Shown here: piece after piece, positions 3,373 through 64,000 of the stretch | How positions within the stretch are numbered: the stretch's first letter is position 1 | How the letters are laid out: the number at the start of each line of letters is the position of its first letter | NCBI RefSeq assembly: GCF_000003815.2 | Contig: NW_023365722.1 | Location: forward strand, 1 to 64,000 | Length of the DNA: 64,000 nt | DNA from: Branchiostoma floridae | Lineage: Eukaryota; Chordata; Leptocardii; Amphioxiformes; Branchiostomatidae | Reading direction: 5' to 3' | Position numbers and translations under genes: made by a program | The notes under the pieces: generated by a model | Databases searched by the model: none | The model's input: only the letters and a program-made list of their open reading frames with translations | Told to the model about the DNA's origin: nothing

Positions 3373-5539
3373 ATGCTGTACCTGATCCTACTCATCACTG
3401 CTGTCTGCAGCACCGCTGTCTGTGGAACAGCACAGCCTGGGGACTCACAGTGGAGCACCGAGGACCTGTGCCATATTCGGAAAGGATGCCAAGGAATCGG
3501 TGAGTGTTGAATACTAGATACTAAGTAATATATAGTTCTACAATGCTTCACCGGTACCGTTTGCCAAGTAAGTCTTTCGTGTTAACTCATGAGGTCCGAA
3601 AGCTTTTATCATAATTGTTTAGAACAATATCTTCGTAGGATTGTAACCTTTATATGCTTGGATAATAGAAAATCTGCCAATCGAGAATAAATGCATTTAT
3701 TTCGTTCTGTTGTATACGAGTTAGGAATCAAGAAACTTACCTGAAATGCTAGGCATCTCAGTGAACCTCACACAAGGCCTATTACAGAAAATGTTTCCCT
3801 AGTAGTACATGAGCCTGATCCTGAAAAAAATCGATTTCTTTGCAGACATTTTACAGAAAAGGGTTGACCTAATGTTGTGGTAGAGGGGTCTCTGATCCAT
3901 CACCCAGCAAGATTTTAATGCTCAAATTGTGGTATCACTTTTTTGCTAGCGAAGCATAAAGATAGAATACTTATTCTGCATAGGCGAAAAATTCAATTTA
4001 TAAAGGAGAGGGGAATCAATTAAAACTCAATGTTTTCAATCAAAATAGCAAGAACTTACCAGCTGGCAAAGCCGTAACATTATCAGAAACAGTATTTTTG
4101 TCTAGGCTTAAGATGATTTTCTGCTTGCAGCTCTGTCAAAACCCAGTCCCGATGGCGATGCCACTTCGATGAAAGAGCTGTGCAGAGCTGTAGGCGATAA
4201 ACTCAGCGTACTCGACTCCAACATATGTGGTGAGTACATTGCCGAATGCTTTTGTCACTTTTCCCCCCAACAATGTTCGGATAAGTGAGGAGTAAAACAA
4301 AATACAAGCATCATCATTTTTCTAGTTCTGTGTGGTTTTTACAGCACTTTTGTTATCTTAGTTCTATGTTTGATTATGTGCGGTACCTTGCATTTTCCTT
4401 ATTGTCTATTTCTCAAATGACCAAAGCATTAAACTGCAAGGTCACTTAGCATTTTAGTCATGAGGGATATCTAATTCACAGATAAATGAGGAATAAAAAT
4501 TCTACTTTATTCTAGTGAACAGCGATAATCTCAATCTTCCCTCTACTTAATACAATTGTATGATTCTAAATTCTCAGGAACTTGTCACAAATACCTTAGG
4601 GCGTATAGCTAGCTAGAACCAGAATTTGTTCATTTGCAATTTCCTACTTTCAACAAAATTTTGTGTCATTTCCCATGAATGTCTCCTGACATCGTATCCT
4701 GCTTCCTCACAGAATCACTTCTGTCCCCGATAGAGGACCCAGACGACGAAGACAACCCCCAGGTAGACAAGGTGGACGAGCAGCTTCCCCAGTCCGACCT
4801 GGCCTCCCTGGCCCTTAGCGGGCGCACGAACTACTTTTCCGACTGTTCTGACATCCACACGGCCCTGTCCCTGTTCAATGCCGTGTCTAGTGGTGTACAT
4901 GACATAATGCCTGTAGGTCTGACCAGCCCCTTATCTGTATACTGTGATCAGACCACAGATGGGGGAGGGTGGACGGTCATACAGAGGAGGCTTGACGGGT
5001 CCATCGACTTTAACCGACTTTATAACGACTTTAGGTACGGGTTTGGTTCATCCGCTGGGGAGCAGTGGTTGGGGTTGGAGAATATGTACCGTTTGACCGA
5101 TCAGGATGCGTATGAGCTATACATAGAATTGGAGGATTGGGACAGTGTGGTGAAGTACGCCAAATACTCGTCATTCTCGGTGGGGAGTGGTTCCTACTAT
5201 CGTCTTTCTGTTGGTGGGTACAGTGGGACGGCTGGGGATGGGTTTTACTTATCAGGAGGCTCATCGAATGCTAACTACCTAAACGGTCAGGGCTTCAGCG
5301 CTAGGAATGAAGATCGTGATACATCGTCGGCGTCATGCGCCAGTACTAACAGTTATTCCACAGGAGGGTGGTGGTACAAGAGCTGTGGTTATTCTGCCCT
5401 CAATGGCCCGTACCTGCGTCCCTCTGACCGTACTAGTGGCAGTGGCGGCGGGATCGTATGGTACCCGTTTGCAGGCTCCTATTGGTACTATCTGAAAAAG
5501 TCCAAAATGATGGTCCGTCCTGCCAACTTCCAACCATAA
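3373..5539 (+). CDS. Secreted fibrinogen-related domain protein, complete three-exon gene
   Basis: Exons 3373-3499, 4131-4229 and 4713-5539 join in frame (phase 1 at both introns) through GTGAGT donors and polypyrimidine-AG acceptors, giving 350 residues plus TAA. Residues 1 to about 20 form a hydrophobic signal peptide (MLYLILLITAVCSTAVC). Exon 2 adds a short segment (KELCRAVGDKLSVLDSN). Exon 3 starts with an acidic linker (IEDPDDEDNPQVDKVDEQL) followed by a ~220-residue FReD with CDQTTDGGGWTVIQRR, EDW, VGGYSGTAGDGF, DRDTSSASC, GGWWYKSC and LKKSKMMVRP. There is no collagen or coiled-coil region, so it is not a classical ficolin; it matches the expanded lancelet FREP/ficolin-like class. A role as a secreted recognition lectin is inferred from the family. 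It is the tandem duplicate of the gene ending at 723. Confidence 0.93.
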
Positions 5540-16000: not shown

Positions 16001-19000
16001 ATGGGTGTACTGAACCAGTCTATGATATGACTGTTTTGAAAGGGTTTCTGATTAATCCCATGGGATTTCATGATAGAATGGGCTGCTGTCAAAAATCGAA
16101 ATACCTGATTTGGACATTGGAATTGATCTTGCAATGATCCTAAATGTTTGAGGACAGCAAATTTTCTCAACTTCTGACGCATTTTGCATTGAAGTGATGC
16201 AGTTCTTTCTCAGTTTGGTATGATACCCTTGGTCCCAGCCCTCCAGCTGGTTGGACTGTCAGACTGATCTTTTGAGTGATGTAAAATACAGAATTGTGTA
16301 TTGAACAATAATTCCTTTCTAAGTATTAGACTGATATAGAGTGTTTCAAATGACATAATATGTTCGTTTTACCTGGTCACCAGTAAAAACTATACATGGT
16401 GGATATGTTGGTGGTAAGAATTCAATGTTCATTTAAAAAAAAAAATGGTGTCAACATATCTAGTATTAATAAATGTATGGCTTTTTCCGTGCCAGGTGTA
16501 AGTACTGGCACTACGACACCAAGCTGCCTAACATGAGCGTCATCATCGTGTTCTACAACGAGGCGTGGTCGGTCGTCATGAGAACGGTCCACAGTGTCAT
16601 CAAGAGGACCCCGCCCGAACTGCTGGCGGAGATTGTCCTGGTGGACGACTTCAGTACGAAAGGTGCGTGCAGTAATCATCACTCATTCGATATCTTAGCT
16701 AGTATCTGTTTGTCGTCTGTTGTTCCCTGTCTTGCGAGAGTTAGACGTGCATGCACTACCAAAAAATGTGACTCGTCTTTGTTCTTCGTGGAACAAAAAT
16801 TATCTTCCAGAAGGAAAGTTATTCAGTGTCCAAGAACTGAGGAAAAGTCTCATCAAGGCAAGGAACAGCTTTCTAATAATCTAAGGATCTTAAACTTTCA
16901 TGAAACCCCGTACCTGTTTTTTCTCACATTTATGGGATTAAATTCTAAATGATGTTTCTTCTTGCAAGAATTTTTCTGTTAAATGGACAGACTGAATTCA
17001 CATTCAAGCTTTTAACAAAACTGTTTTTCATAGTTTTTACAAAATTCAAGGTGTTTTTCATCATTTTTCACAAGGAACTTTTTCTTTTGAATTGAGGTTG
17101 TTGACTCAATGTGCATTGTGTCTTTTGCTCTTTTTGCAATAAACTTGATTTTACTTGTGTTGGCGTATATCTATTAGTTGAAATACAACACAGGGTATTC
17201 TGTATCACCCTCAGTCCCTGCCCTCCCATTGCTCGGGCCATACCTAGGACGATACGGAAATGCCCCGTGTTGTATTATGTATGTCATTGGTGACATAAGC
17301 AATTTTCCTTGTTTGTATTGTTTTAGAACACTGGAAGCAGAGGCTGGATGACTACATAGTCCAGTTCAAGGGCCTGGTGAAGCTGGTCAGGAACAAGCAG
17401 AGGGAAGGGCTGATCCAGGCACGCAGCATCGGGGCACGGGAGGCCACCAAGGGCAAGATTCTAGTCTACCTGGACTCCCACTGTGAAGTTGGCATCAACT
17501 GGGCTCCTGCTCTCATATCTCCTATAGCTGTCAACAGGTGAGATAGATAGAAAGGGGAGTAATTTACTTTTCATTTTTCGTATATAGTAGCATACACCAA
17601 GAGATTTGGAGTTTGAATCCCAGGCTTGTCACTCGCCCGACAAGCATACTACCAGAACTTTCAGGGTTGCAGTCCTAATTAAGAGACGTTAAGCTGTGGT
17701 CCATTGTACTTGGCAAAAAGAGCTTAGCCTAGTGAAATTTCCCTGTTACACTTCTGACTTCTCTGTCAGAAATATTACAATATATGCAGTAATGTAACAT
17801 AATACCAAGCCTAAATTTTTTGCTAAAAATGCTGCAAGCTGTTGGCATCCATCTAAAAAAAATTACAGTTTTATAGAATAAAAAATAAAAATAAATGTTT
17901 TTCTAACCAACAGTTGTTGGGACCCAAATTTTTGGCTTACTCAGGAGCATAGTTCACAGAGGGAACTTGTCTGATCCAGCTCCCTGGATGTGACATGTGA
18001 GCCACGTGACTGCAGCAACCTGCAGGTGCCAGATAACCTGTCACCTCCCGTCTCGGTTTAGTGCTGGATGGCAAGCTTGAATGCACACATTCTCCCCCAC
18101 TCAAACTCAAATACAGGACTTTGTTTGTTTGGTGATTTGTTTATTCCTACATTTATTCTGTCTTCCCTTCCCAGAACCACCTGCACTGTGCCTTTGATTG
18201 ACGTGATTGACGGTAACAACTACAACATCTATGCCCAGGGTGGGGGGGACGAGTACGGACATGCCCGCGGGGCCTGGGACTGGAGTCTGCTGTGGAAGAG
18301 AGTTCCTAACATATCCAGGGAGAGGGCCAGGCACAAATATCACTCTGAGCCTTACTGGTTTGTGCCCCAGGGGTGGGGATGAATATCCAGGGTGGGGGGG
18401 GACGAGTACGGACATGCCCGTGGGGCCTGGGACTGGAGTCTGCTGTGGAAGAGAGTTCCTAACACATCCAGGGAGAGGGCCAGGCACAAATATCACACCA
18501 AGCCTTACAGGTATGTGCCCCAGGGGTGGGGATGAGTCTCCAGGGTGGGGGGGACGAGTACGGACATGCCCGCGGGGCCTGGGACTGGAGTCTGCTGTGG
18601 AAGAGAGTTCCTAACACATCCAGGGAGAGGGCCAGGCACAAATATCACACCGAGCCTTACAGGTATGTGCCCCAGGGGTGGGGATGAATCTCCAGGGTGG
18701 GGGGGACGAGTACGGACATGCCCGGGGGGCCTGGGACTGGAGCCTGCTGTGGAAGAGAGTTCCCAACACATCCAGGGAGAGGGCCAGGCATAAATATCAC
18801 ACCGAGCCTTACAGGTATGTGCCCCAGGGGTGGGGATGACTCCCCAGGGTGGGGGGGAACGAGTACGGACACACCCGTGGAGCCTGGGACTGGAGCCTGC
18901 TGTGGAAGAGAGTTTCCAACACACCCAGGGAGAGGGCCAGGCATAAATATCACGCCGAGCCTTACAGGTATGTGCCCCAGGGGTGGGGATGAGTCCCTAG

Positions 19001-22000
19001 GGGTTGAGGTGGGCTCCAAGGTGTGGGGCAAGCTACTAGTACCGGAGTCTGCTGTGGAAGAGAGTTCCCATTGACACACTCAAGAAGAGGGCCTGAGGCA
19101 GAGACTGCACCATCCTGTTTTGTCTCATCCATTCTAGTCGAGTCAAGCACTACAAATACAATCACAGAATTTTTGAATCCACCTTGAAAAGCATTTAATT
19201 TGTTTGTTTCAGACTACAGATATGGACTGAGCTGCCAGTCATACAGACAGCAGATTCTATCATAATCATGTATATACTGTGAACAAATATGCATTTCTTC
19301 CTTAAAAATTAATGACGATTTGTCTATAATAGGAAATTGAATTGACCCTCTGGAGTTTAGGACTCCTTGTAATGGCTCATATTTCAATGGAAAGATAATT
19401 TTACAGTGTTGACAGAAAACTGAAGCTTATGTTAAATCTTCCATTCTCTGTCCCCAGATCCCCTGCCATGGCTGGTGGCCTGTTTGCCATTGACAGGGAA
19501 TACTTCTTTGAGCTGGGTCTGTACGATCCTGGACTCAAGATCTGGGGCGGGGAGAACTTTGAGATCTCTTACAAGGTATGTCTCATGTCTTACATACAGT
19601 CTTTAAAAATTTTCCATAGTTGTGAATTGACATTATAATAAGCTTTGAATTCTCCAAAATGATATTTCTGAATTGCTATGGAGTAACTGCACCTTTCAAA
19701 ATTAGATTTGTCATTGATTTTTGTTCCAATGTCATATTATACATTTACTAATAATTTTGCACTGTATTTGATGTGATTTTGTCAAAACTAATGTTGAAAG
19801 TTAATGTTATCATCAGAAATTTCATGTTGTTGAATGTTGCCAAACATCAGCTTATAATTCAAAATGTTTTCTAGCATTAATTAACACGATACAAATGTGT
19901 ACTAATTGGGACACCTGCTCAATCATTTTCAATTCAAGAGAGAAAAAATTATTTCAGCTATTTGAATAGTGAAAAAAAAAAGAAAGAAAGAAAAAGTACA
20001 TGTCTTCTAATTTCAAATTATGACAATAAACGTGACAGTCTCTTGATATAGAACAACTGTTTTTGTAAAATTTAATATAATTCATGTTTACTTAAAAGCC
20101 ACTCATAGATCTGAAGTAAAGCCTGTTTACAAAATGATATTACCCAGGAAATTTCTATAAAAAAGACTTAAGATTTTGAGAAGTGTGTTCACTTAACAGT
20201 AACTGTTTACAGTACATATTTGACGTTCATCTTGTTTATTGTTGTATTCTTATTGAATTATCATGTTTTACCTAATATTGTATTGCAGCAACAGCTCACC
20301 CTGCATACGTTACAACTGTTACAACAACATGACACAAACTAACACCATCATTTAACTTCAACACAGCATGCACTGCATTTCACAACAAACTGTCTGTCCC
20401 TGTTCTATCATGTTGTATATAAAAATGTTCGCCACAACGTTGCTTACTAAGGTAATATCTGTTTGCCGTGTTCCGTTGTGCTGTTTGCCAGTGCTACACT
20501 GCGTTGCTTCTAAATTCAGTTTACGTTGCATTCATATGGCTTGTGTTCTGGCATGGCAATATTTTCTACTCTCATGACTTTTTTATAATACCACATTTCC
20601 TGACAAATTGTGGTAACAAAAGCCTTTGATCCAAAGAAAGTTTACAGGTTTAATTTTTAACACTGGTTAGGGTTGTGTCAAGTTTTGTTCTGCTTTAATG
20701 CTAACAGTGGTCCTTACATGGAGGATTGGTCCATCATTCACCTTTCATTAAGGAGAGATTTGAAAATGGATATTATTAATTATTATGGAATAAAAAAGAC
20801 ACAATAACTGTTTCAACCACTGAGGAACTTAAGTTGTTGTAGTGATGTCAAAATTAAAGTATGATATCATGATGTCAATGAAAGATATGAAAAAGTTAAA
20901 CCATGTTTGTACATGACTGTGGTAAGATCAAAGATACTAGATATTACATTTTACCTATTTGAACACGTAATGCATGCATGTACCAAATCTGATGTAGGTA
21001 TGGCAGTGCAGTGGCCAGCTGTTGTTCGTTCCCTGCAGTCGGGTCGGCCACATTTACCGACTGAGGGGGTGGAACGGCAACCCCACCCCCAAAAACTCAG
21101 GGGAGTCTATATTCATGCAGGTTGGTCCGGCTTACCCCCACCCCTGTGTTTAGTGGCACAGTCCAACCTTGTTGTTGTTGATTGTTTGGGTGTTTACGTT
21201 TTATATTAGGTGTGGCAGTGCGGCGGCGAGGTGCTGTTCACCCCCTGCAGTCGGGTGGGACACATTTACCGGCTGAAGGGGTGGGCAGGGAACCCCCCTC
21301 CCCAGCACTCAGGGTCCTCTGTGGTTCTACAGGTTGGTCAGGCCCAGAACACAGCAGAACACCCCTGTGTAAAGAGTGGTACAACCAAATATTCTTGTGC
21401 TTAAAAAATGTGAACAAAGGAGTTTTTTGCTGATTTTGGGCCCAAACATTTAGGTACAGGGAGGTTTTGGAAGTTTGAAGTTAAGAATTACTCCTGGACG
21501 CACTCCATTCAAATGATAGAAGTTGCTTCAAAATCTACATCATTTCACAAGGAAGATTTTATTGAATAATAAAACCTTCTTGTTTCATGATGCATCAACA
21601 GCATTGGACATATTTTGGACCAGTCCACTTCACCAACAGGGTGTTCTGTATAATGGCTGGAGGGAGAGCATGATTACTCCTGACCATGGCCAGTGCTGTA
21701 GACACTAACCCACAATGCACTCTGGGTGCTAGCCAGATACCCCTGCCCCCCTTCCCCCAACATCCTGAAATAATTGCTGGCACCCAGGGTAATGCGTACC
21801 CAACATAGCTCTGCTGAATTATACCATTAGGTGCCTGCATGATTCCAGGACAGTCTGCATTAACCTTGTAAGCTTGGCTGATGTAAGGACAAGCTCAATG
21901 CTGCAGCTGATCTCAGTGCAAAAGGAAGCAGAACTCTTGTAGTGGTCACAGGTATATAGAGTCGTTACCAGACGTAAACAAGGAGACATAAATGCAAAGA

Positions 22001-25000
22001 GAAACTGCAACATTGGAACCCCTCTGCCTTCATATGTCCTAACTGTGGCCGTGACTGCCATGCAAGGATTGGCCTGCAGAGCCATGGGAGACGCTGTCAA
22101 CCACGGTGACTTCATACAGAGCGCTACCATCATCTGCAAAGATGGAAGGATGCCTACTATCAGATTATATACAGGGCCTTCAGTCCATTAGTTGCTGATC
22201 TTTTTTTGCTCTCCAAAACTCCCCCGGGCTATAAAACCTGCCCGGATATTGGTCGGCATACACAGTACTGCATTCTGCCTCCAAAGAGACCGGCTGGCAG
22301 CCTGCATCATTAGTATGGCATCTGTGTAAAGTTGCTACATGTAGGTGGTCTTGCAGATGAGGGTTGTTGAATCTGAAGGCTCAGTCTGAATCTTGGCAAG
22401 ACCCAGGGTTGCACTCTTGGGAAAGTTACACAACTTAGCAGTATCAAAAGGATTCTTCTTTGTTTTCCTTAGATCTGTCTCCTATAGCTTTTAAAGGCAA
22501 AGATCTGTAAAATTTATATAGCCTTTCGTGCATACCATTGCAAGCCCGTTTGGTATTTCAACTTTGGCTTGTTTGAGGCAATGTTGCATGTTTCAGTGTC
22601 CTTTTCAGAATGGATTTTTGGATCTTCCATTTTTGTGTCCTCTAATTCTAAAGCTGTTGTCTGGCCCATCTGTATTGTGTCTGAGGTTCACATCCAGTAT
22701 GGTTTTTCTCTGTCAAGTTTTGTTTGTGTGTGGCTCAATGTGTCAAATCTTTGTTACTTCCTTGAAAATGGAGGCATTGTTCTTGGCTTGTTTGTTTGTT
22801 TTATGTGTGTTCAAATTTGTTTGTTCAAGTTGAGTACAATATGATGAAAAGTGTGGATTTTACGTTACATTTTAGGTTTGGATGTGTGGTGGCTCAGTGT
22901 TGAATGTCCCGTGCAGTCGTGTTGGACACATTTACCGGCTGAAGGGGTGGGCTGGCAATCCCGCTCCGAAAGAAGGGGGATTTTTTGTTTTACAGGTTGG
23001 TCATTCCAAGAACATTTCTTGGTTTTGAGTGGCATGACCCGAGAAGTTGAATGACTGTTATCGATAGAATGGGCAGAAGATCTCATGTTTCTTACATGAT
23101 ATACATTAAAGCTAGAGGCAGTTTGTTGGCAAGGTCTTGTCCATTAGGCCATGTTGATTTGATTATATGGATGACATCCTCCGGGAACTCCAAAACTGAT
23201 GCGAGCGAGCGAATAAAAAAAAAGGTTGGCCAAAAAAAAAAGTTGCCTTCAGTATGAAATCAAAGTGGCCAGGAAGGTTGAACATAGGACTAAACACATA
23301 GTATGGTATACCAACAGTTATGTGTAGGGACCAGTACATCATACGGGTGCAAAACATTTTTTTCTTCTTGGACCAATCCGAAAGAAAACAGACCTGAAAA
23401 AAACAACAACAAAGGAACAGGTTTCGCCATTTACAAAATGGACTCACTATGTCGGCAGCCATTTGGGGTCTAACCGGGGGGCCAAGAAGACAACAAGAGC
23501 GAGGTCAAGTAGAGTTTATAGTCAATTGCACCAAGTTTCCACAGTCAAAGGTACAGAGACAGTTAGCCTTTATTACATGGAGATGGGATTTTAAAATGCA
23601 GTGGGAGTCCAATAACCCACCAAACAGATTCCTTTGTAGCAAAATTGACCAATTACCAATGTTTTGAGTATTGCCAGTTNNNNNNNNNNNNNNNNNNNNN
23701 NNNNNNNNNNNNNNNNNNNNNNNNNNNNNNNNNNNNNNNNNNNNNNNNNNNNNNNNNNNNNNNNNNNNNNNNNNNNNNNNNNNNNNNNNNNNNNNNNNNN
23801 NNNNNNNNNNNNNNNNNNNNNNNNNNNNNNNNNNNNNNNNNNNNNNNNNNNNNNNNNNNNNNNNNNNNNNNNNNNNNNNNNNNNNNNNNNNNNNNNNNNN
23901 NNNNNNNNNNNNNNNNNNNNATCAAATCAACGTGGCCGTACTTCCAGTCAGTTGGACTCAATTTTCCAGAAAGGGGTTTTTAATATGATATTTTTTACTT
24001 AAACGGCATTTTGAAACTCCAGTAGTGGCCATCATGGCAGACTGTACCAGGACCAAAATTTACCTTTTTTTCTCCTTTCTTTTAACTACCCTTTCCTCAT
24101 CCACAATCACTGCTGAAAGACAGACAAACCTACAGTGACCCATTCTTTTCACATTCATACATATCCTATACAATTTTTCATACCAAACAAGCATATTTTC
24201 ACACAACCAGACACAGAAAACAACTCTTACAACATTTACTCAAAAACATTATCCACACTACAAAAGAACACTAAAAAAACAGCTAAAAACATCAATCTCA
24301 CAAAAAACACTCACTCAATTTCAAAACCGCTTATCCCATTTATTAATCCCCAAAGCTATAAAGTGTCCACGCCATATTTTACTCGTAGATTTGGCAGTGC
24401 GGAGGCGAGGTTTTGTTCACGCCGTGTTCGAGAATCGGACACATTTATCGTCTAGAGGGCTGGGCCGGTAACCCTCCACCCGCGAACTCAGGGTTGTCTG
24501 TGGTGTTACAGGTTTGTGCCTGATAGAAAATAGATGGTGTAGGGTAAAGTATAGATTGCTGTCTGTAGTGTATATATTAGCCATATAGTTAAAGTATGTG
24601 CCTGCAACAAAGTACCTTTGAGATATAGATTGAGGTACATTATAATCGTTGGAAGGTACTGGTTTTGTGTCTGCTATAGAAATTAAAGCTCAGTATTTAG
24701 TTAGCTGAAGCTTCTACAAATAAGTTGGTAAAAAGTCCAACTAATTTAGGTTATTAGGCTCACCACATAGCTTTTAGAAACCTTCTGCTTCAATAACAAC
24801 ATGATGCTAGAGAATTTTTATGGTGCGAGGTAAGTAGAGCATTAAATTTTGTTTTGTATGCAATTAATTTCAAATACAGTTCCTATATTCAGAACAATCT
24901 ACTCTTGTTTACAATGTATGTAAATGGTACAATTAAAGAAATACTCAAATGAGAAACCTTTTTTTAGTTTAGGTAATTTCTAGATTCAAATATTTTATCA

Positions 25001-28000
25001 GTAACTTAATGTAATCTAGAATGTACAATTAGAAGTTAGTTTTGATATAAGATAGAAATTTCTTTCTGAACAGTATCTTTTAGCTCAAGGATGACATAAA
25101 GCCATGATCGTTTTTGGATCTGTTATAAGACTTCTGCTTTTCTTTTGCACTGCTCTATTATATTAACTCTTAAATTGCATTAAAGTCTTTAACTAAAGAA
25201 TTTGAATTAAAGGCTGTCAATAATAATGATTGATGTCTGTCTTTTATAACCTTGCCTTTCCCCAACACTAGAACTACATGCGAGTAGTGGAGGTATGGTG
25301 GGATGAGTATAAGGAGTACTTCTATGCAAGCCGTCCAGAAATCCGTAACCACCCGTATGGTGACATCTCAGAACTAGTGGCCTTCAGGTCAGTACAGCTA
25401 TTTTTTAATTCCTTATTTGGCCCAGGATAACTGTCAATGTTAATAATGGTTGTTCCAGACTAGTCCGTATTTTATGGTTATTTGCACAGGCTTTGAAGTT
25501 GTACAGGTTTCCTTAGAATGATTTGAATGATTTTGCACATTAGATGTGCTACAATGCTCAAAATTCAATGCTGGTGACATTTGAATCGACGTTGTCACAA
25601 ATTTTTGTTCCAGGACACCACACTTCTGGGCCAAATGCATTTTATAACTTCATGTTTTCTCCTGCGCTTATGACATAACTGAAATGCAAAATTATTCTGC
25701 ATCATCACGTTTTATTTTGCATCCCTGCCCTCCTCTGATTTATGATTAAGATCACCATAATGGCATTTGGTGATCCGACCCAAGGCTCTAGCCAGCTCGA
25801 CATTTTTTTCCGTCAGCCAATTCCCATTGTCGCGAATACACCATTCCAGGAGTTAGAGAGACTGAACTGAGACCTTGAAAAACGGGTTAATGAGATTATA
25901 ATTTATCGTATGCGAAAGGGCACCGACATACATTGTCAACAATCATAACAATAGCAAAACAAACAGTGTGTGACTTTTACGGCCGTGGACGGCGTCCCCA
26001 AGCAGCCTGTAGCTTCCACCAAGAAACTTTTATCAGATTATGTCCGTCAAAGTTGACGGATTTGTTTTAAAATTTTTCCGTCACACGCAACAAATTTCCG
26101 TCAATTGACGGAAAAACGGACACTGGCTAGAGCCCTGATCCGACCTCAGGTTGCACAGTGTATCCAGATACATTTTGTTGGATTAAATTTAAAAGCTGTC
26201 TATCATGTTCCAGATAAGTTTATTTCTTTTCCTTGTAACTGTTAACAGACTGTTTAATGATCATCAATTGAATTTAATATTGATGTTTTGTTTTGTTCCA
26301 TACAGAGAGAGGAACCACTGCAAAAGCTTCAAGTGGTTCATGGAAGAGATCGCCTATGACATCGTGGAGCACTTCCCACTGCCTCCTAAGAACAAGATCT
26401 GGGGAGAGGTCTGTCTCTGTTCTTCCACACTCACTCATTCTCTCACTCATTCTTGCCATGTACTGTGCCATGTGTAATCAATCTTGGATTCAGCAACCAA
26501 GATTGAAGAGACTGTAGGAAAAAGGTTGCCTGGGACTGGGTTGGGTTAACTATGTCAAAATGTACTGGTCTATTTCAATGTTGCATGTGACTTCAGGTTG
26601 CCTGACCATTTTTGACTCTATATTGAATTTTTTCCCCCCTGATGACATACTAGGGACTTGGATGAGTGTACTTTACTTTTCTGTTCACATATGTATAAAC
26701 CTACACTGTAGTATGTTTATTTTTATTTTCACTCTACAATACCTTAGGTATGATACAGAGTGGAAGCATATTGTATTTGTAATGTTTCATCTTGCCAAAT
26801 CACTTGTCGGTGGTTCCAAATGGATGTCTGTAAAGCTACCAGCATTTCCATCCAACGGCATGTAACATTATTTGATCATAATACTATAGCATAATGATGA
26901 AGTGCTAAACCACCGCAAATAGTCCATTTCCTCCCGACCATGAAATAAGATCATTGTGAAATTCAAATATCTACGTCAGTTAACTGTATATCATTATATT
27001 CTGTTTCATCAGATCCGAGGGATAGACTCGGGCCTGTGCCTGGACAGCATGGGGCACAAGGACGGTGGAGAGATGGGGATCGGTGGCTGTCACGGGATGG
27101 GCGGGAACCAGATGTTCCGTCTGAACGAGGCTAACGAGATGGCTCAGTATGACCAGTGTATCCACGTGGTCGGGACCCAGGTCAAACTGGACCACTGCGA
27201 CACGGAGCATACCAGATATAGGGGGTGGGAGTTCGACGAGGTGAGATGTTGTTTGGAGTTTGGTCATAGGGGCAGTGGGTTGTTATCTACTATGAATTAT
27301 AATTGTCTAGTTACATGTAACGCTGGTTCACCTTTATCCGAGGGTAACCTGTATTCGTTGTTTGTAAGAAAAAGACGTATTTACTAAGGGATATGAAGTC
27401 GACGGACGGTGGTTTCAAATCGGAATATTTTGAAATAATTGCAAATTTGAAACCACTGTCAGCAGACTTAATACTCCTAAATGTGCTGTTTTTAAAGACA
27501 ACGGATAAAGGTCACCCCACGGATAAAGGTGAACTAAGCGTTATATCTACTGTGCTCCAACCCTCTCCTTCCACCATCTACAATGTATTGCAGTTCCCCA
27601 ATCAAAGTCAGGTAACCATTTTGACACCTGGATGGAGTGGGCATAATCATGTAAAGTGGCTTTTCCAATGACATGCCACGGCTGGCCAGGAATGCTTGGA
27701 ATAGATCCTGCGACTATGGTACTCCAGCTGAACTTACAGTTTCATATCTCACGTGTTGAACAAGCTATGGTCTGGATTTTGGGCTGTAATTCTAAGACTT
27801 GTTGCTGGGAAGTTTTGGCCCAGTCTAGCAAATTTCTTAGGAACTGCAAGTAGCACTTTAATTGCAGACTTTGATGCAGAATGAGTTAAGAAATAGTCTG
27901 TATAATGCAGACTCTGCTGTCCAGTGTTGTAACTGGCCCTTCCTCACAGCTGGCTAGTGGATATATTGGGTACCTCACAAGAGTTTTAATTTGATTAGGC

Positions 28001-28187
28001 TTTTTAAGTCAAGAAGGCATGAATGAATTTTCATGATTTTTTTGTGTCCCAGGATAAGAAGATGCTGCGTCACAAAATCGGGAAGTGCCTTGACCGGTCC
28101 GAGATTCTCCACCAGGTCTTCATGTCAGACTGCGATGAGTCATCAAAAACACAGAAATGGGAGTTCAACCAGGTCATGGCCATGTAA
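9931..28187 (+). CDS. GALNT7: Polypeptide N-acetylgalactosaminyltransferase 7 (GALNT7-like), whole gene
   Basis: Type II Golgi enzyme that transfers GalNAc from UDP-GalNAc to Ser/Thr; the vertebrate orthologue prefers already glycosylated peptides. Coding exons: 9931-10032, 13949-14083, 14802-gap, 15323-15472, 15704-15815, 16496-16662, 17327-17537, 18175-18357, 19458-19575, one of four cassettes (20998-21120, 21210-21332, 22876-22995, 24389-24511), 25272-25387, 26306-26408, 27013-27240 and 28053-28187. Phases agree at the readable joins; the sum is about 641 codons plus gap sequence, close to human GALNT7 as I recall it (657). GALNT7-type signatures are [75 protein letters not shown] and [15 protein letters not shown]. 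The exon 18175 join gives a stop as assembled (see that entry). Extra stem exons in intron 1 cannot be excluded. Confidence 0.93.
11165..11675 (+). mobile_element. tRNA-derived SINE-like repeat
   Basis: Contains a pol III B-box-like GGTTCGAATCC near 11206, then the ordered blocks GATATGCCA(C)TG, GTGCC(C/A)(T/A)(T/A)GG, GATGTGAGTGG or GTGTGAGTGG, GGGGCAATT, CACCTGAGTTA, CTCCAGACCCTTG and GTCGGCCCA. The same blocks recur in the same order at 57320-57775, so this is a dispersed family in this genome. Confidence 0.65.
13565..13716 (+). mobile_element. SINE-like fragment
   Basis: Starts with CCTGTAGCTCAACTGGTGG, an A-box-like tRNA start, and continues with GTTGGAGCTGCACTCATCC and TTCAGAAGGGACATAAATTG, blocks usual in deuterostome tRNA-derived SINEs. 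Interrupted at 13717 by a MITE-like insertion. Confidence 0.45.
13717..13883. mobile_element. Small hAT-like MITE inside a SINE-like repeat
   Basis: Ends TTGGGGTGGGTACCTGTAC and, inverted at the right, CTGGTACGCACCCCTAG. Flanks GTCTGCAC and GTCTGAAT look like a degraded 8-bp target duplication. Similar ends and CAGGTCC-rich interior occur in the larger element at 39534-39966. Confidence 0.45.
13949..14083 (+). CDS. GALNT7: GALNT7 stem-region exon
   Basis: 45 codons, phase 0 at both ends, between acceptor CCCTCCCAG and donor AAG/GTTTAT. The peptide ([20 protein letters not shown], then [18 protein letters not shown]) is charged and low in hydrophobics, as expected for the Golgi stem. It contains no GALNT signature; membership rests on phase, position and the next exon. 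Confidence 0.65.
14086..14798 (+). mobile_element. LINE 3' fragment with nested MITE, filling a GALNT7 intron
   Basis: After the nested MITE, frame [29 protein letters not shown] resembles the extreme C-terminus of CR1/L2-type reverse transcriptases (compare SFIPRALALLN at 6613). The fragment ends in the tetranucleotide run ATTGATTGATTGA, a usual LINE tail. The whole insertion is bordered on both sides by AAGGT (14081-14085 and 14799-14803), a candidate target-site duplication that also supplies the splice donor and acceptor. Confidence 0.6.
14114..14468. mobile_element. hAT-like MITE
   Basis: Terminal inverted repeats CAGGGTTGTAGCCA at 14114 and TTGGCTACAACCCTG ending at 14468; total 355 bp. 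A related element with the same architecture, size and internal CCGTC motifs is at 25781-26137 with a perfect 8-bp target duplication. Here the flanks (TCTAGGAC and TCTATAGG) are only a weak match, consistent with age. Confidence 0.7.
14802..14840 (+). CDS. GALNT7: GALNT7 acidic stem exon, cut by N gap
   Basis: GTACCCAACTTTATC... reads [13 protein letters not shown] in phase 0 and continues directly from QMPQLK of the previous exon. It runs into the N run at 14841. To meet the next exon (15323, phase 1) the hidden remainder must contribute 3n+1 bases. The acceptor context (GATTGATTGAAG) has no polypyrimidine tract. Confidence 0.55.
14841..14940. other. Assembly gap (100 N)
   Basis: Exactly 100 N, the usual placeholder for a gap of unknown size. 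It hides the end of the GALNT7 acidic stem exon. Confidence 0.95.
15003..15240. repeat. Degenerate minisatellite, about 21-bp unit
   Basis: Repeated variants of TGTAGTGTCTGTACCCCT, about eleven units, e.g. at 15014, 15033, 15053, 15144 and 15219. It lies beside the N gap in a GALNT7 intron and may have caused the assembly break. Confidence 0.75.
15323..17537 (+). CDS. GALNT7: GALNT7 exons for stem end and first half of catalytic domain
   Basis: Four exons. 15323-15472 (donor GTTCGT, weak) encodes [14 protein letters not shown] to PYKLG. 15704-15815 encodes [26 protein letters not shown]. 16496-16662 encodes [20 protein letters not shown], the [19 protein letters not shown] nucleotide-sugar segment and EIVLVDDFS. 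17327-17537 encodes [19 protein letters not shown] and LDSHCEV, where D-S-H is the manganese-binding DxH motif of GT27 enzymes. Phases 1, 1, 2, 1 and 2 agree at every join. Donors are otherwise standard (GTAAGT, GTGCGT, GTGAGA). Confidence 0.93.
17585..17715 (+). mobile_element. SINE-like fragment
   Basis: GAGTTTGAATCCCAGGCTTG followed by GTCACTCGCCCGACAAGC and GTTGCAGTCCTAATTAAGAG, ACGTTAAGCTGTGGTCC: a B-box-like start and body usual in tRNA-derived SINEs. Lies in a GALNT7 intron. Confidence 0.45.
18175..18357 (+). CDS. GALNT7: GALNT7 catalytic exon whose 3' half is tandemly amplified
   Basis: Acceptor CTTCCCTTCCCAG, then [61 protein letters not shown], which aligns with the GALNT7 segment before RSPAMAGG. 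The following exon (19458) needs phase 2 with AG to make Arg. In this first copy the junction reads TACTG/GTTTGT; splicing there gives TG+A, a stop codon. The four downstream repeat copies keep TACAG/GTATGT (donors at 18511, 18663, 18815, 18968), but reading through to them from this exon meets TGA at 18380-18382. So no simple splice restores the frame as assembled. Sequencing or assembly error within the repeat, or a null allele, are both possible. Confidence 0.8.
18235..19110 (+). repeat. Tandem repeat of GALNT7 exon 3' half plus splice donor, 152-153 bp unit
   Basis: Equivalent points GACGAGTACGGACATGCC fall at 18248, 18401, 18553 and 18705, and a variant near 18857, so five units of 152-153 bp plus a decayed sixth (about 18996-19110). 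Each unit holds about 120 bases of exon ([20 protein letters not shown]), the GTATGT donor, and about 30 bases of intron ending CCAG before the next unit. Unit differences are few, so amplification or homogenisation is recent. Confidence 0.92.
19458..19575 (+). CDS. GALNT7: GALNT7 Gal/GalNAc-transferase motif exon
   Basis: Encodes [39 protein letters not shown] between acceptor CTGTCCCCAG and donor GTATGT. WGGEN.E is the Gal/GalNAc-T motif (acceptor and metal-site region). It ends in phase 0, so every one of the four following cassette exons can be joined in frame. Confidence 0.94.
20998..21120 (+). CDS. GALNT7: GALNT7 alternative cassette exon A
   Basis: 41 codons, phase 0 to 0, between GATGTAG and GTTGGT. 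Encodes [51 protein letters not shown] contains the third metal-ligand His of the family. CSG replaces the usual CGG. Only 89 bases separate it from cassette B. Confidence 0.88.
21210..21332 (+). CDS. GALNT7: GALNT7 alternative cassette exon B
   Basis: 41 codons, phase 0 to 0, acceptor TTATATTAG, donor GTTGGT. Encodes [41 protein letters not shown]. Homologous over the whole length with cassettes A, C and D. Confidence 0.9.
22029..22106 (+). mobile_element. LINE remnant with C-terminal zinc finger
   Basis: Frame [26 protein letters not shown] then TGA. The [14 protein letters not shown]...H...C pattern is the C-terminal zinc finger found after reverse transcriptase in many animal LINEs. The upstream sequence (about 21985 on) stays in frame ([10 protein letters not shown]). 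Only this end is recognisable. Confidence 0.55.
22876..22995 (+). CDS. GALNT7: GALNT7 alternative cassette exon C
   Basis: 40 codons, phase 0 to 0, acceptor CATTTTAG, donor GTTGGT. Encodes [40 protein letters not shown]. It is one codon shorter than the others and has CGGSVLN in place of CGGEVLF and EGGFF in the loop. Confidence 0.9.
23147..23938. mobile_element. MITE-like element with inverted ends, interrupted by N gap
   Basis: GGCCATGTTGATTTGAT at 23147 faces ATCAAATCAACGTGGCC at 23921-23937, an inverted pair with one mismatch. An internal GAAATCAAAGTGGCC (about 23257) is a further partial copy. The N run 23680-23920 lies inside, so the true length is unknown and a further cassette exon could be hidden there. 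Confidence 0.55.
24389..24511 (+). CDS. GALNT7: GALNT7 alternative cassette exon D
   Basis: 41 codons, phase 0 to 0, acceptor TTTTACTCGTAG, donor GTTTGT. Encodes [41 protein letters not shown]. The IWQCGG start and RLEGW are the forms I recall in vertebrate GALNT7, so this may be the ancestral version. Confidence 0.92.
25272..26408 (+). CDS. GALNT7: GALNT7 exons for end of catalytic domain
   Basis: 25272-25387 encodes [39 protein letters not shown] (phase 0 to 2, donor GTCAGT). 26306-26408 encodes [20 protein letters not shown] and [14 protein letters not shown] (phase 2 to 0, donor GTCTGT). [15 protein letters not shown] is the strongly conserved catalytic-to-lectin bridge of the family. 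The intron between them carries the hAT MITE at 25781-26137. Confidence 0.95.
25781..26137. mobile_element. hAT-type MITE with perfect 8-bp target duplication
   Basis: 357 bp. Inverted ends CAAGGCTCTAGCCAG and CTGGCTAGAGCCCTG; the same 8 bases ATCCGACC flank both sides (25773-25780 and 26138-26145). TIRs beginning CARRG and an 8-bp duplication are diagnostic of hAT transposition. No transposase: non-autonomous. Confidence 0.92.
27013..28187 (+). CDS. GALNT7: GALNT7 exons for the ricin B-type lectin domain and stop
   Basis: 27013-27240 encodes [40 protein letters not shown] to GWEFDE; 28053-28187 encodes [44 protein letters not shown] and TAA. This beta-trefoil carbohydrate-binding module, common to the GALNT family, has C-L-D repeats (GLCLD, GKCLD) and QKW. 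In these enzymes it binds prior GalNAc residues and guides glycopeptide selection. Confidence 0.95.
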
Positions 28188-62883: not shown

Positions 62884-62951
62884 GGCACAATGACCTTAAA
62901 ACCACAGCGAACACTTCATTTTCTCGCCATTTCCCAAGTGCATTTACAGTA
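62884..62951. mobile_element. Half copy of the TACTGTAAA MITE
   Basis: AAAACCACAGCGAACACTTC and GTGCATTTACAGTA resemble the right half of 56980-57191. Its terminal TACAGTA is directly followed by the first unit of the tandem array. Confidence 0.5.
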
Positions 62952-64000
62952 CTTCAAACAATGTACTAAGGTTCTAGATCTTGGGTTTGTTGTTACTTCA
63001 ACAATGTACTAGTACTAAAGTATGAGATCTTGGGTTTCTTGTTACTTCAAACAATGTACTAAAGTATGAGATCTTGGGTTTCTTGTTACTTCAAACAATG
63101 TACTAAAGTATGAGATCTTGGGTTTCTTGTTACTTCAAACAATGTACTAAGGTATGAGATCTTGGATTTCTTGTCACTTCAAACAATATACTAAGGTATG
63201 AGATCTTGGATTTCTTGTTACTTCAAACAATGTACTAAAGTATGAGATCTTGGGTTTCTTGTTACTTCAAACAAGGAGGTTAAAGAAAGAACCTCCTTGC
63301 TTCAAACAATATACTAAGGTATGAGATCTTAGGTTTCTTGATACTTCAAACAATGTACTAGTACTAAAGTATGACTATGAGATCTTGGGTTTCTTGTTAC
63401 TTTAAACAATATACTAAGGTATGAGATCTTGGGTTTCTTGTAACTTCAAACATTGTACTAAGGTATGAAATCTTAGGTTTCTTGTTACTTCAAACAATAT
63501 ACTAAGGTATGAGATCTTGGGTGGGTTTCTTGTTACTTCAAACAATGTACTAAAGTATGAGATCTTGGGTTTCTTGTTACTACAAACAATGTACTAAGGT
63601 ATGAGATCTTGGGTTTCTTGTTACTACAAACAATGTACTAAGGTATGAGATCTTGGGTTTCTTGTTACTACAAACAATGTACTAAAGTATGAGATCTTGG
63701 GTTTCTTGTTACTATACAAACAATGTACTAAGGTATGAGATCTTGGGTTTCTTGTTACTTCAAACAATATACTAAAGTATGAGATCTTGGGTTTCTTGTT
63801 ACTACAAACAATGTACTAAGGTATGAGATCTTGGGTTTCTTGTTACTTCAAACAATGTACTAAAGTATGAGATCTTGGGTTTCTTGTTACTACAAACAAT
63901 GTACTAAGGTATGAGATCTTGGGTTTCTTGTTACTTCAAACAATGTACTAAGGTATGAGATCTTGGGTTTCTTGTTACTTCAAACAATATACTAAAGTAT
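62951..64000 (+). repeat. Tandem array, about 44-bp unit, running off the window
   Basis: About 24 units built from ACAATGTACTAAGGTATGAG, ATCTTGGGTTTCTTGTTACT and TCAA, in SELENOW intron 3. Units differ by a few bases (AATGTACT or AATATACT, AAGG or AAAG, TTACTTC or TTACTAC). One unit at 63272-63299 is interrupted by a 28-base insertion with perfect 10-base inverted arms CAAGGAGGTT and AACCTCCTTG. Confidence 0.97.

Follow-up and report, generated by a model that had tools for sequence, protein, structure and literature searches.

Four tandem candidate alternative exons for the catalytic flexible loop of a lancelet GALNT7 gene

Polypeptide N-acetylgalactosamine (GalNAc) transferases carry a flexible loop that sets the open or closed state of the enzyme and contacts the acceptor peptide (PMC4432651). 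According to a preprint, alternative splicing of Drosophila pgant5, the orthologue of GalNAc-T1, swaps residues 398-457, including this loop, between the isoforms pgant5A and pgant5B; loop residue 419 (D or K) alters the in vitro activity (kcat/KM) towards charged mucin peptides, and salivary-gland knockdown is partly rescued by pgant5A, not by pgant5B (PMC12776162). Tandem exon substitution has also been listed for GALNT13, Pgant5 and gly-5, in vertebrates, arthropods and nematodes, and read as convergent (PMC9741552). Here we describe the GALNT7 gene of the lancelet Branchiostoma floridae in a stretch of 64,000 nucleotides (hereafter the window: positions 1 to 64,000, forward strand, of contig NW_023365722.1, RefSeq assembly GCF_000003815.2), where four homologous exons, cassettes A to D, stand in tandem and each encode the loop-bearing segment. 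We consider it likely that they are tandemly duplicated alternative exons, one of which would enter each mRNA.

The four cassettes and the gene that holds them

The cassettes lie between the exon encoding the WGGEN motif and the exon encoding NYMRV. In the rows below a slash marks an exon border and lower case marks intron bases.

19458..19575, forward strand: shared upstream (WGGEN) exon, donor AAG/gtatgt
20998..21120, forward strand: cassette A, candidate alternative exon encoding the segment with the catalytic flexible loop, 41 residues, open frame, tag/GTATGG...ATGCAG/gttggt
21210..21332, forward strand: cassette B, 41 residues, open frame, tag/GTGTGG...CTACAG/gttggt
22876..22995, forward strand: cassette C, 40 residues, open frame, tag/GTTTGG...TTACAG/gttggt
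24389..24511, forward strand: cassette D, 41 residues, open frame, tag/ATTTGG...TTACAG/gtttgt
25272..25387, forward strand: shared downstream (NYMRV) exon, donor CAG/gtcagt

A preliminary description of this DNA had placed four exons here, read them as phase 0 to 0 and given the A-B interval as 89 bases. The borders proved exact to the base, with AG before each cassette and CAG/GT at its end. The phase also held for all four, the upstream exon closing with a complete codon at 19575 and the downstream exon opening with another at 25272. Cassettes A to D measure 123, 123, 120 and 123 bases and contain no stop codon (0 in 4 of 4), and the introns from the upstream to the downstream exon measure 1422, 89, 1543, 1393 and 760 bases, which bears out the short A-B interval.

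The homology of the cassettes, likewise proposed before, is supported by their similar lengths and by the protein identity over the six pairs, which amounts to 26-35 of 40-41 residues. Synonymous divergence (dS) is 0.66 for A-B, 1.33 for A-C, 1.46 for A-D, 1.40 for B-C and 1.53 for B-D, and is saturated for C-D. Nonsynonymous divergence (dN) ranges from 0.13 to 0.33, the latter value applying to C-D, and dN/dS is 0.08-0.33 in the five pairs with finite dS, these being tests by pair and not by branch, so that a recent relaxation in one cassette would escape notice. At the DNA level, BLASTN of the region against itself (E 1e-3) retrieved cassette pairs only, five of the six, C-D being too diverged, and the homology fades within about 20 bases beyond the exon edges. 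In 4000 neutral simulations run at a distance of 0.66, the smallest observed between any pair, protein identity averaged 11.8 of 41 residues with a maximum of 22, so that the observed 26-35 was never reached, and all four copies remained stop-free in 1.1% of runs. Because the observed identity exceeds the simulated maximum and all four frames are free of stops, the cassettes are not products of chance; to judge from these comparisons, they are old and have been under long purifying selection.

Compared with human GalNAc-T7 (hereafter T7), the cassettes are identical at 27 of 41 (A), 29 of 41 (B), 24 of 40 (C) and 29 of 41 (D) residues, and 21 alignment columns are invariant across all four and the human protein. 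Cassette D begins with Ile-Trp and carries Glu at cassette position 23, both as in human T7. In a tree built on a hand-made alignment, the separation from the T10/T2 group has a support of 92 and the other values are 22-43, so that the order of duplication does not emerge from it. No further cassette was found by tblastn in the readable part of 19576-25271 on either strand (best extra match E 0.12).

The place of the segment in the enzyme can be read from GalNAc-T2 (T2). Position 2 of our phmmer query corresponds to T2 residue 304 (full-length chain 4d0t), and the T2 alignment (2ffu) is gap-free up to the arginine following GHVF; therefore the cassette starts at T2 residue 342 and its GHIYR motif equals T2 358-362. 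The identical offset places the WGGEN tryptophan at Trp331. In T2, Trp331 is a key catalytic residue, the manganese ligands are Asp224, His226 and His359, Phe361 is needed for activity through peptide recognition, and the flexible loop spans Arg362-Ser373 (PMC4432651). By this alignment the third of the metal ligands (T2 His359), the Phe361 equivalent (a tyrosine) and the catalytic flexible loop all come from each cassette; the metal-ligand histidine and the T7-type loop core are kept in all four. The preliminary description had the segment border the cover loop, which was too modest, as loop, His359 and Phe361 all align inside the cassette. The loop proper aligns to T2 with gaps, the T7 type being longer, and we claim no residue-by-residue equivalence within it. 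From cassette position 22 onwards, positions 23, 26, 30, 32-34 and 36-40 vary among A, B, C and D; in that order the residues are R/K/K/E at 23, N/A/A/A at 26, T/P/A/P at 30 and K/Q/K/A at 32, and the net charge over positions 22-41 is +1, +1, +1 and -1.

The remaining exons that we located also belong to a forward-strand gene of this family, with GT-A catalytic exons at 16496-16662, 17327-17537 and from 19458 onwards, and a ricin-type lectin end at about 27000-28184.

16496..16662, forward strand: GALNT7 catalytic-domain exon, Pfam PF00535 at 2.2e-21 jointly with 17327-17537
17327..17537, forward strand: GALNT7 catalytic-domain exon, PF00535 at 2.2e-21 jointly with 16496-16662
18175..18357, forward strand: exon preceding the WGGEN exon, its 3' part forming the start of a 152-base array
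26306..26408, forward strand: exon after the NYMRV exon, found by tblastn with a human T7 query (79% over 28 residues)
27000..27279 (approximate), forward strand: first part of the ricin-type lectin domain, tblastn, Pfam PF00652 at 2.1e-14
28080..28184, forward strand: later stretch of the lectin domain, tblastn, PF00652 at 0.0014 (19.3 bits, under the model cut-off of 29)

Both the GT-A catalytic domain and the C-terminal ricin-type lectin domain are thus present (PF00535 2.2e-21, PF02709 1.3e-6, PF00652 2.1e-14); NCBIfam, a library for bacteria and archaea, assigned no family. With the 153 joined residues around the cassettes as a phmmer query, human T7 (6iwq) was the best match at 1e-85, followed by T10 at 1.8e-46 and T2 at 1.7e-40. 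The genome that we searched comprises 513 Mb in 431 contigs, and the 64-kb window opens a contig of 279,986 bases (C164). When the genome was searched with 153 residues of human T7, none of the other loci listed equalled the identity of the window gene at any of three flanking exons (88, 70 and 75%). On contig C2, an intronless gene gave the longest and highest-scoring single match to the human T7 query, but at 55% identity, and an exon on contig C7 scored near the window's NYMRV exon owing to its length, at 49% identity to human T7. Since the T7 match lies far ahead of T10 and T2 and identity is highest at the three flanking exons, the window gene is taken as the lancelet orthologue of GALNT7, a polypeptide GalNAc-transferase of family GT27, which agrees with its earlier naming.

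Splicing of the cassettes and rival explanations

In the mechanism that we propose, the spliced mRNA would take a single cassette between the lysine (K) codon ending at 19575 and the asparagine (N) codon starting at 25272. Skipping all cassettes would lose a metal ligand and the loop, giving a product that is expected to be inactive, and including two together would duplicate an active-site strand; from this protein logic and from precedent we infer that the choice is exclusive. The isoforms would differ in loop closure over UDP-GalNAc (UDP, uridine diphosphate) and in acceptor contact, through positions such as 23, 26, 30 and 32, and these differences could confer different acceptor or prior-glycan preferences. 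The cassette acceptors hold 8, 11, 11 and 11 pyrimidines in 17 bases (A to D) versus 12-15 in eight constitutive exons of the GALNT7 gene (exact one-sided p 0.002, which is indicative, the cassettes being related and not independent). Because all four acceptors are pyrimidine-poor, inclusion would most likely be governed by cell-type splicing factors and not by default strength. All four cassette donors have T at position +3, compared with 3 of 29 other GALNT donors (22 read by eye from other GALNT loci and 7 from the window gene, unreadable donors excluded), a comparison in which the cassettes again are not independent.

Several observations weigh against a one-of-four choice in a working gene. 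The cassette donors are not weak, since their pairing with U1 (-7.7, -7.7, -7.7 and -7.2 kcal/mol) compares with a mean of -7.0 kcal/mol in the 29 controls. We rejected weak donors as a cause of alternative use, as the strongest cassette donors (-7.7) equal or surpass 20 of the 29 controls in U1 pairing. All cassette lengths are multiples of three, so the frame enforces nothing, as the preliminary description had recognised. It had looked instead to RNA pairing or to short-intron hindrance across the A-B interval, and neither is borne out.

21121..21209, forward strand: A-B interval, 89 bases, with a branch-point-like TTGAT whose A is 61 bases downstream of the donor and 28 upstream of the acceptor

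Hindrance is described for distances of <50 bases from donor to branch point (PMC5740500), which the candidate A at +61 exceeds; the sole branch candidate near the donor, CTTAC (A at +14), has two AGs after it. For docking or selector pairing we searched 15 intron pairs for ungapped helices, with 100 dinucleotide shuffles, and no pair stood clearly beyond the shuffles except through the arms of an inserted element.

23144..23940 (approximate), no strand assigned: high-copy inverted-repeat element in the C-D intron, holding the N gap at 23680-23920

The strongest intron helix is the 18-base inverted repeat of this element (about 23146-23163 with 23921-23938), matched by 0 of 100 shuffles for its own pair and 7 of 100 over all pairs, and we rejected it as a docking-selector structure; the second-best helix, between introns I2 and I4, is equalled in 5 of 100 shuffles of its own pair, uncorrected for the 15 pairs. 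No recognised exclusivity device (close branch point, U2/U12 clash, frameshift or competing RNA structure) was thus found at the locus, which has only AG/GT borders. Such a device is not strictly required, 484 of 629 mutually exclusive exon clusters having been ascribed to other mechanisms (PMC5740500).

The same element bears on the suggestion that the gap at 23680 might hide a fifth cassette. Ahead of the gap, the sequence matches 39 other places at 94-97% identity, plus one further match of 38 bases, among 40 scored out of 3841 candidates at first look. All five element copies that we fetched have the same inverted end arm and hold 322-324 bases of element where the window has its gap, written as 241 N. 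The 140 bases after the gap have no other match in the genome. The gap is most likely element sequence, and a fifth cassette within it is unlikely.

Two further points against our reading come from the rest of the gene and from its relatives. At 18235-18992 a 152-base array of 5.0 copies repeats the 3' part, the donor and the following intron of the exon at 18175-18357. The donor of copy 1 (TACTG/gtttgt), joined to the WGGEN exon, creates a TGA; the four later copies have the donor TACAG/gtatgt, but a stop interrupts read-through to each of these. On paper, a script recovered 149 paths that avoid stops by one extra intron within the array, in a check that covered part of the N-terminal exons; those closest to the expected protein differ from it by a small gain or loss of residues and depend on sites that look poor. 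By a simple route, the full protein may therefore not be made from this allele or assembly path, and either the array is misassembled, or the allele is broken, or splicing is unusual there. The constraint on the cassettes speaks for a functional gene in the species. In the other 19 GALNT loci found in the genome, no second full-length copy of the segment exon was found in the fetched stretches with ten queries (the flanks searched beyond the exon being about 480-700 bases in the shortest loci).

The locus can be explained in other ways, of which we regard a non-exclusive use of the cassettes as unlikely. Zero, one or more would then be included, and full skipping would give a dead, lectin-bearing product as a regulatory form. 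The multiples of three and the lack of an exclusivity device fit this view, and inclusion of exon 6 of human GALNT7, which may or may not correspond to the cassette segment, is reportedly lowered in endometriosis; however, tandem cassettes would add another metal-ligand strand and another loop to a GT-A active site, a product unlikely to fold, and every cassette keeps its length and catalytic residues. It is quite unlikely that a single cassette works, most plausibly D, whose start and position 23 most resemble the human protein, and that the others are relics of exon duplication. Several GALNT genes of the genome do show partial duplications of exon borders, but here all four cassettes have intact borders and no stops, and 26-35 of 40-41 residues are identical at dS of at least 0.66, when the neutral maximum was 22 of 41 in the 4000 simulations.

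Recursive splicing appears very unlikely. The upstream AAG joined to A, B or C recreates a donor (AAG/GTATGG, AAG/GTGTGG, AAG/GTTTGG) that could excise the cassette again, and D (ATTTGG), which alone does not open with GT after AG, would be the end stop. The recreated donors, though, pair with U1 at -6.2, -5.6 and -5.4, poorer than the cassettes' own -7.7, and for this reason we keep the idea as a rival and not as the main mechanism; moreover, the GT stems from Val-Trp codons that are common to several other GALNT loci and not specific to this one. A bolder version, which we hold to be highly improbable, is a four-way switch of the active-site lid, in which each lid would serve a distinct acceptor or pre-glycosylated mucin and would be chosen by an AG/GT re-splicing ratchet running through A, B and C and ending at D. 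An assembly artefact that merged the cassettes of several paralogous genes seems extremely improbable to us. The 280-kb contig does contain N gaps and the hard-to-assemble 152-base array, yet each flanking exon has one T7-type copy in the whole genome, on this contig, with the next best at 77% and 53% identity, and the introns between cassettes have no mutual homology at E 1e-3 beyond the exon edges.

Other GALNT loci and tandem repeats

The genome holds at least 20 GALNT loci by the segment search and at least 19 places by the WGGEN-exon search; both counts are lower bounds because only the best candidates were scored, and they leave aside one weak match, at C4:32806972 (E 0.032). Two loci (L026 and L027) have a single, partial segment match, of 26 and 29 residues, that of L027 running into N, and in another (L032) the WGGEN exon was not seen in the fetched stretch.

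At least 4 of the 20 loci (the window, L009, L015 and L018) have a tandem array that covers an exon border and lies no more than one exon away from the junction after the WGGEN exon. In L009, a T10-like GALNT gene (G000:C7:19291000-19300900), a 117-base unit is present in 5.0 copies on the reverse strand at 3955-4533, each with the acceptor and first part of the segment exon, which is full length in the last copy only. L015 (G000:C4:32719500-32723500) has 12.4 copies of a 65-base unit on the reverse strand at 1609-2407, followed by one full exon; its units mostly carry an acceptor-like TGTAG/GTTTGG and the start of the segment exon. These two arrays look like minisatellites over an exon border, unlike the four complete and diverged exons of the window. 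In L018 (G000:C2:31181500-31190500), 6.8 copies of a 59-base unit on the reverse strand at 1154-1557 repeat the end of the WGGEN exon and its donor.

L027 contains a 109-base repeat in 1.9 copies, and the window itself has a 44-base tandem repeat of 23.6 copies at 62950-64000, reaching its end. A further GALNT gene (L033, G000:C2:10587000-10589000) has an open frame of 621 residues that is intronless across the WGGEN and loop segments and is perhaps a retrocopy that stayed open.

Comparison with known systems

We found no paper on four-version GALNT7 loop exons in the open-access literature; annotation databases were outside the scope and may hold predicted isoforms. If our reading is right, the splicing choice could yield four enzymes with different tuning, and loop swapping by splicing, described in a fly T1-type enzyme, would reach a further branch of the family and a chordate. 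Four naturally selected versions of the loop on one constant scaffold would also offer a ready-made experiment on the share of the loop in the specificity of a T7-type enzyme.

In having a short intron between two homologous exons, the A-B pair resembles exons 4a/4b of OGDH, as described in PMC7969005; there, however, mapped donor-near branch points enforce exclusivity, whereas the lancelet interval has a normally placed candidate. The candidate cluster in lancelet GALNT7 also resembles human mutually exclusive multi-exon clusters, which contain three to ten homologous exons, mostly lack a known exclusivity device and were validated by junction reads (PMC5740500). The term 'GALNT' is absent from the main text of that paper. 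The passage of PMC9741552 on tandem exon substitution names neither GALNT7 nor a number or position of cassettes, and the words amphioxus, Branchiostoma and lancelet are absent from its main text.

The closest parallel remains pgant5A/5B, where the exchanged piece likewise holds the catalytic flexible loop and the isoforms differ in substrate preference and rescue (PMC12776162). The fly exchange involves two versions of residues 398-457, including the post-loop helix-turn-helix, in a T1-type enzyme (PMC12776162), whereas lancelet GALNT7 has four candidate versions of an exon of 40-41 residues in a T7-type enzyme. A two-way loop swap is thus already known in a fly T1-type enzyme, and what would be new here is a choice among four, in the T7 branch and in a lancelet.

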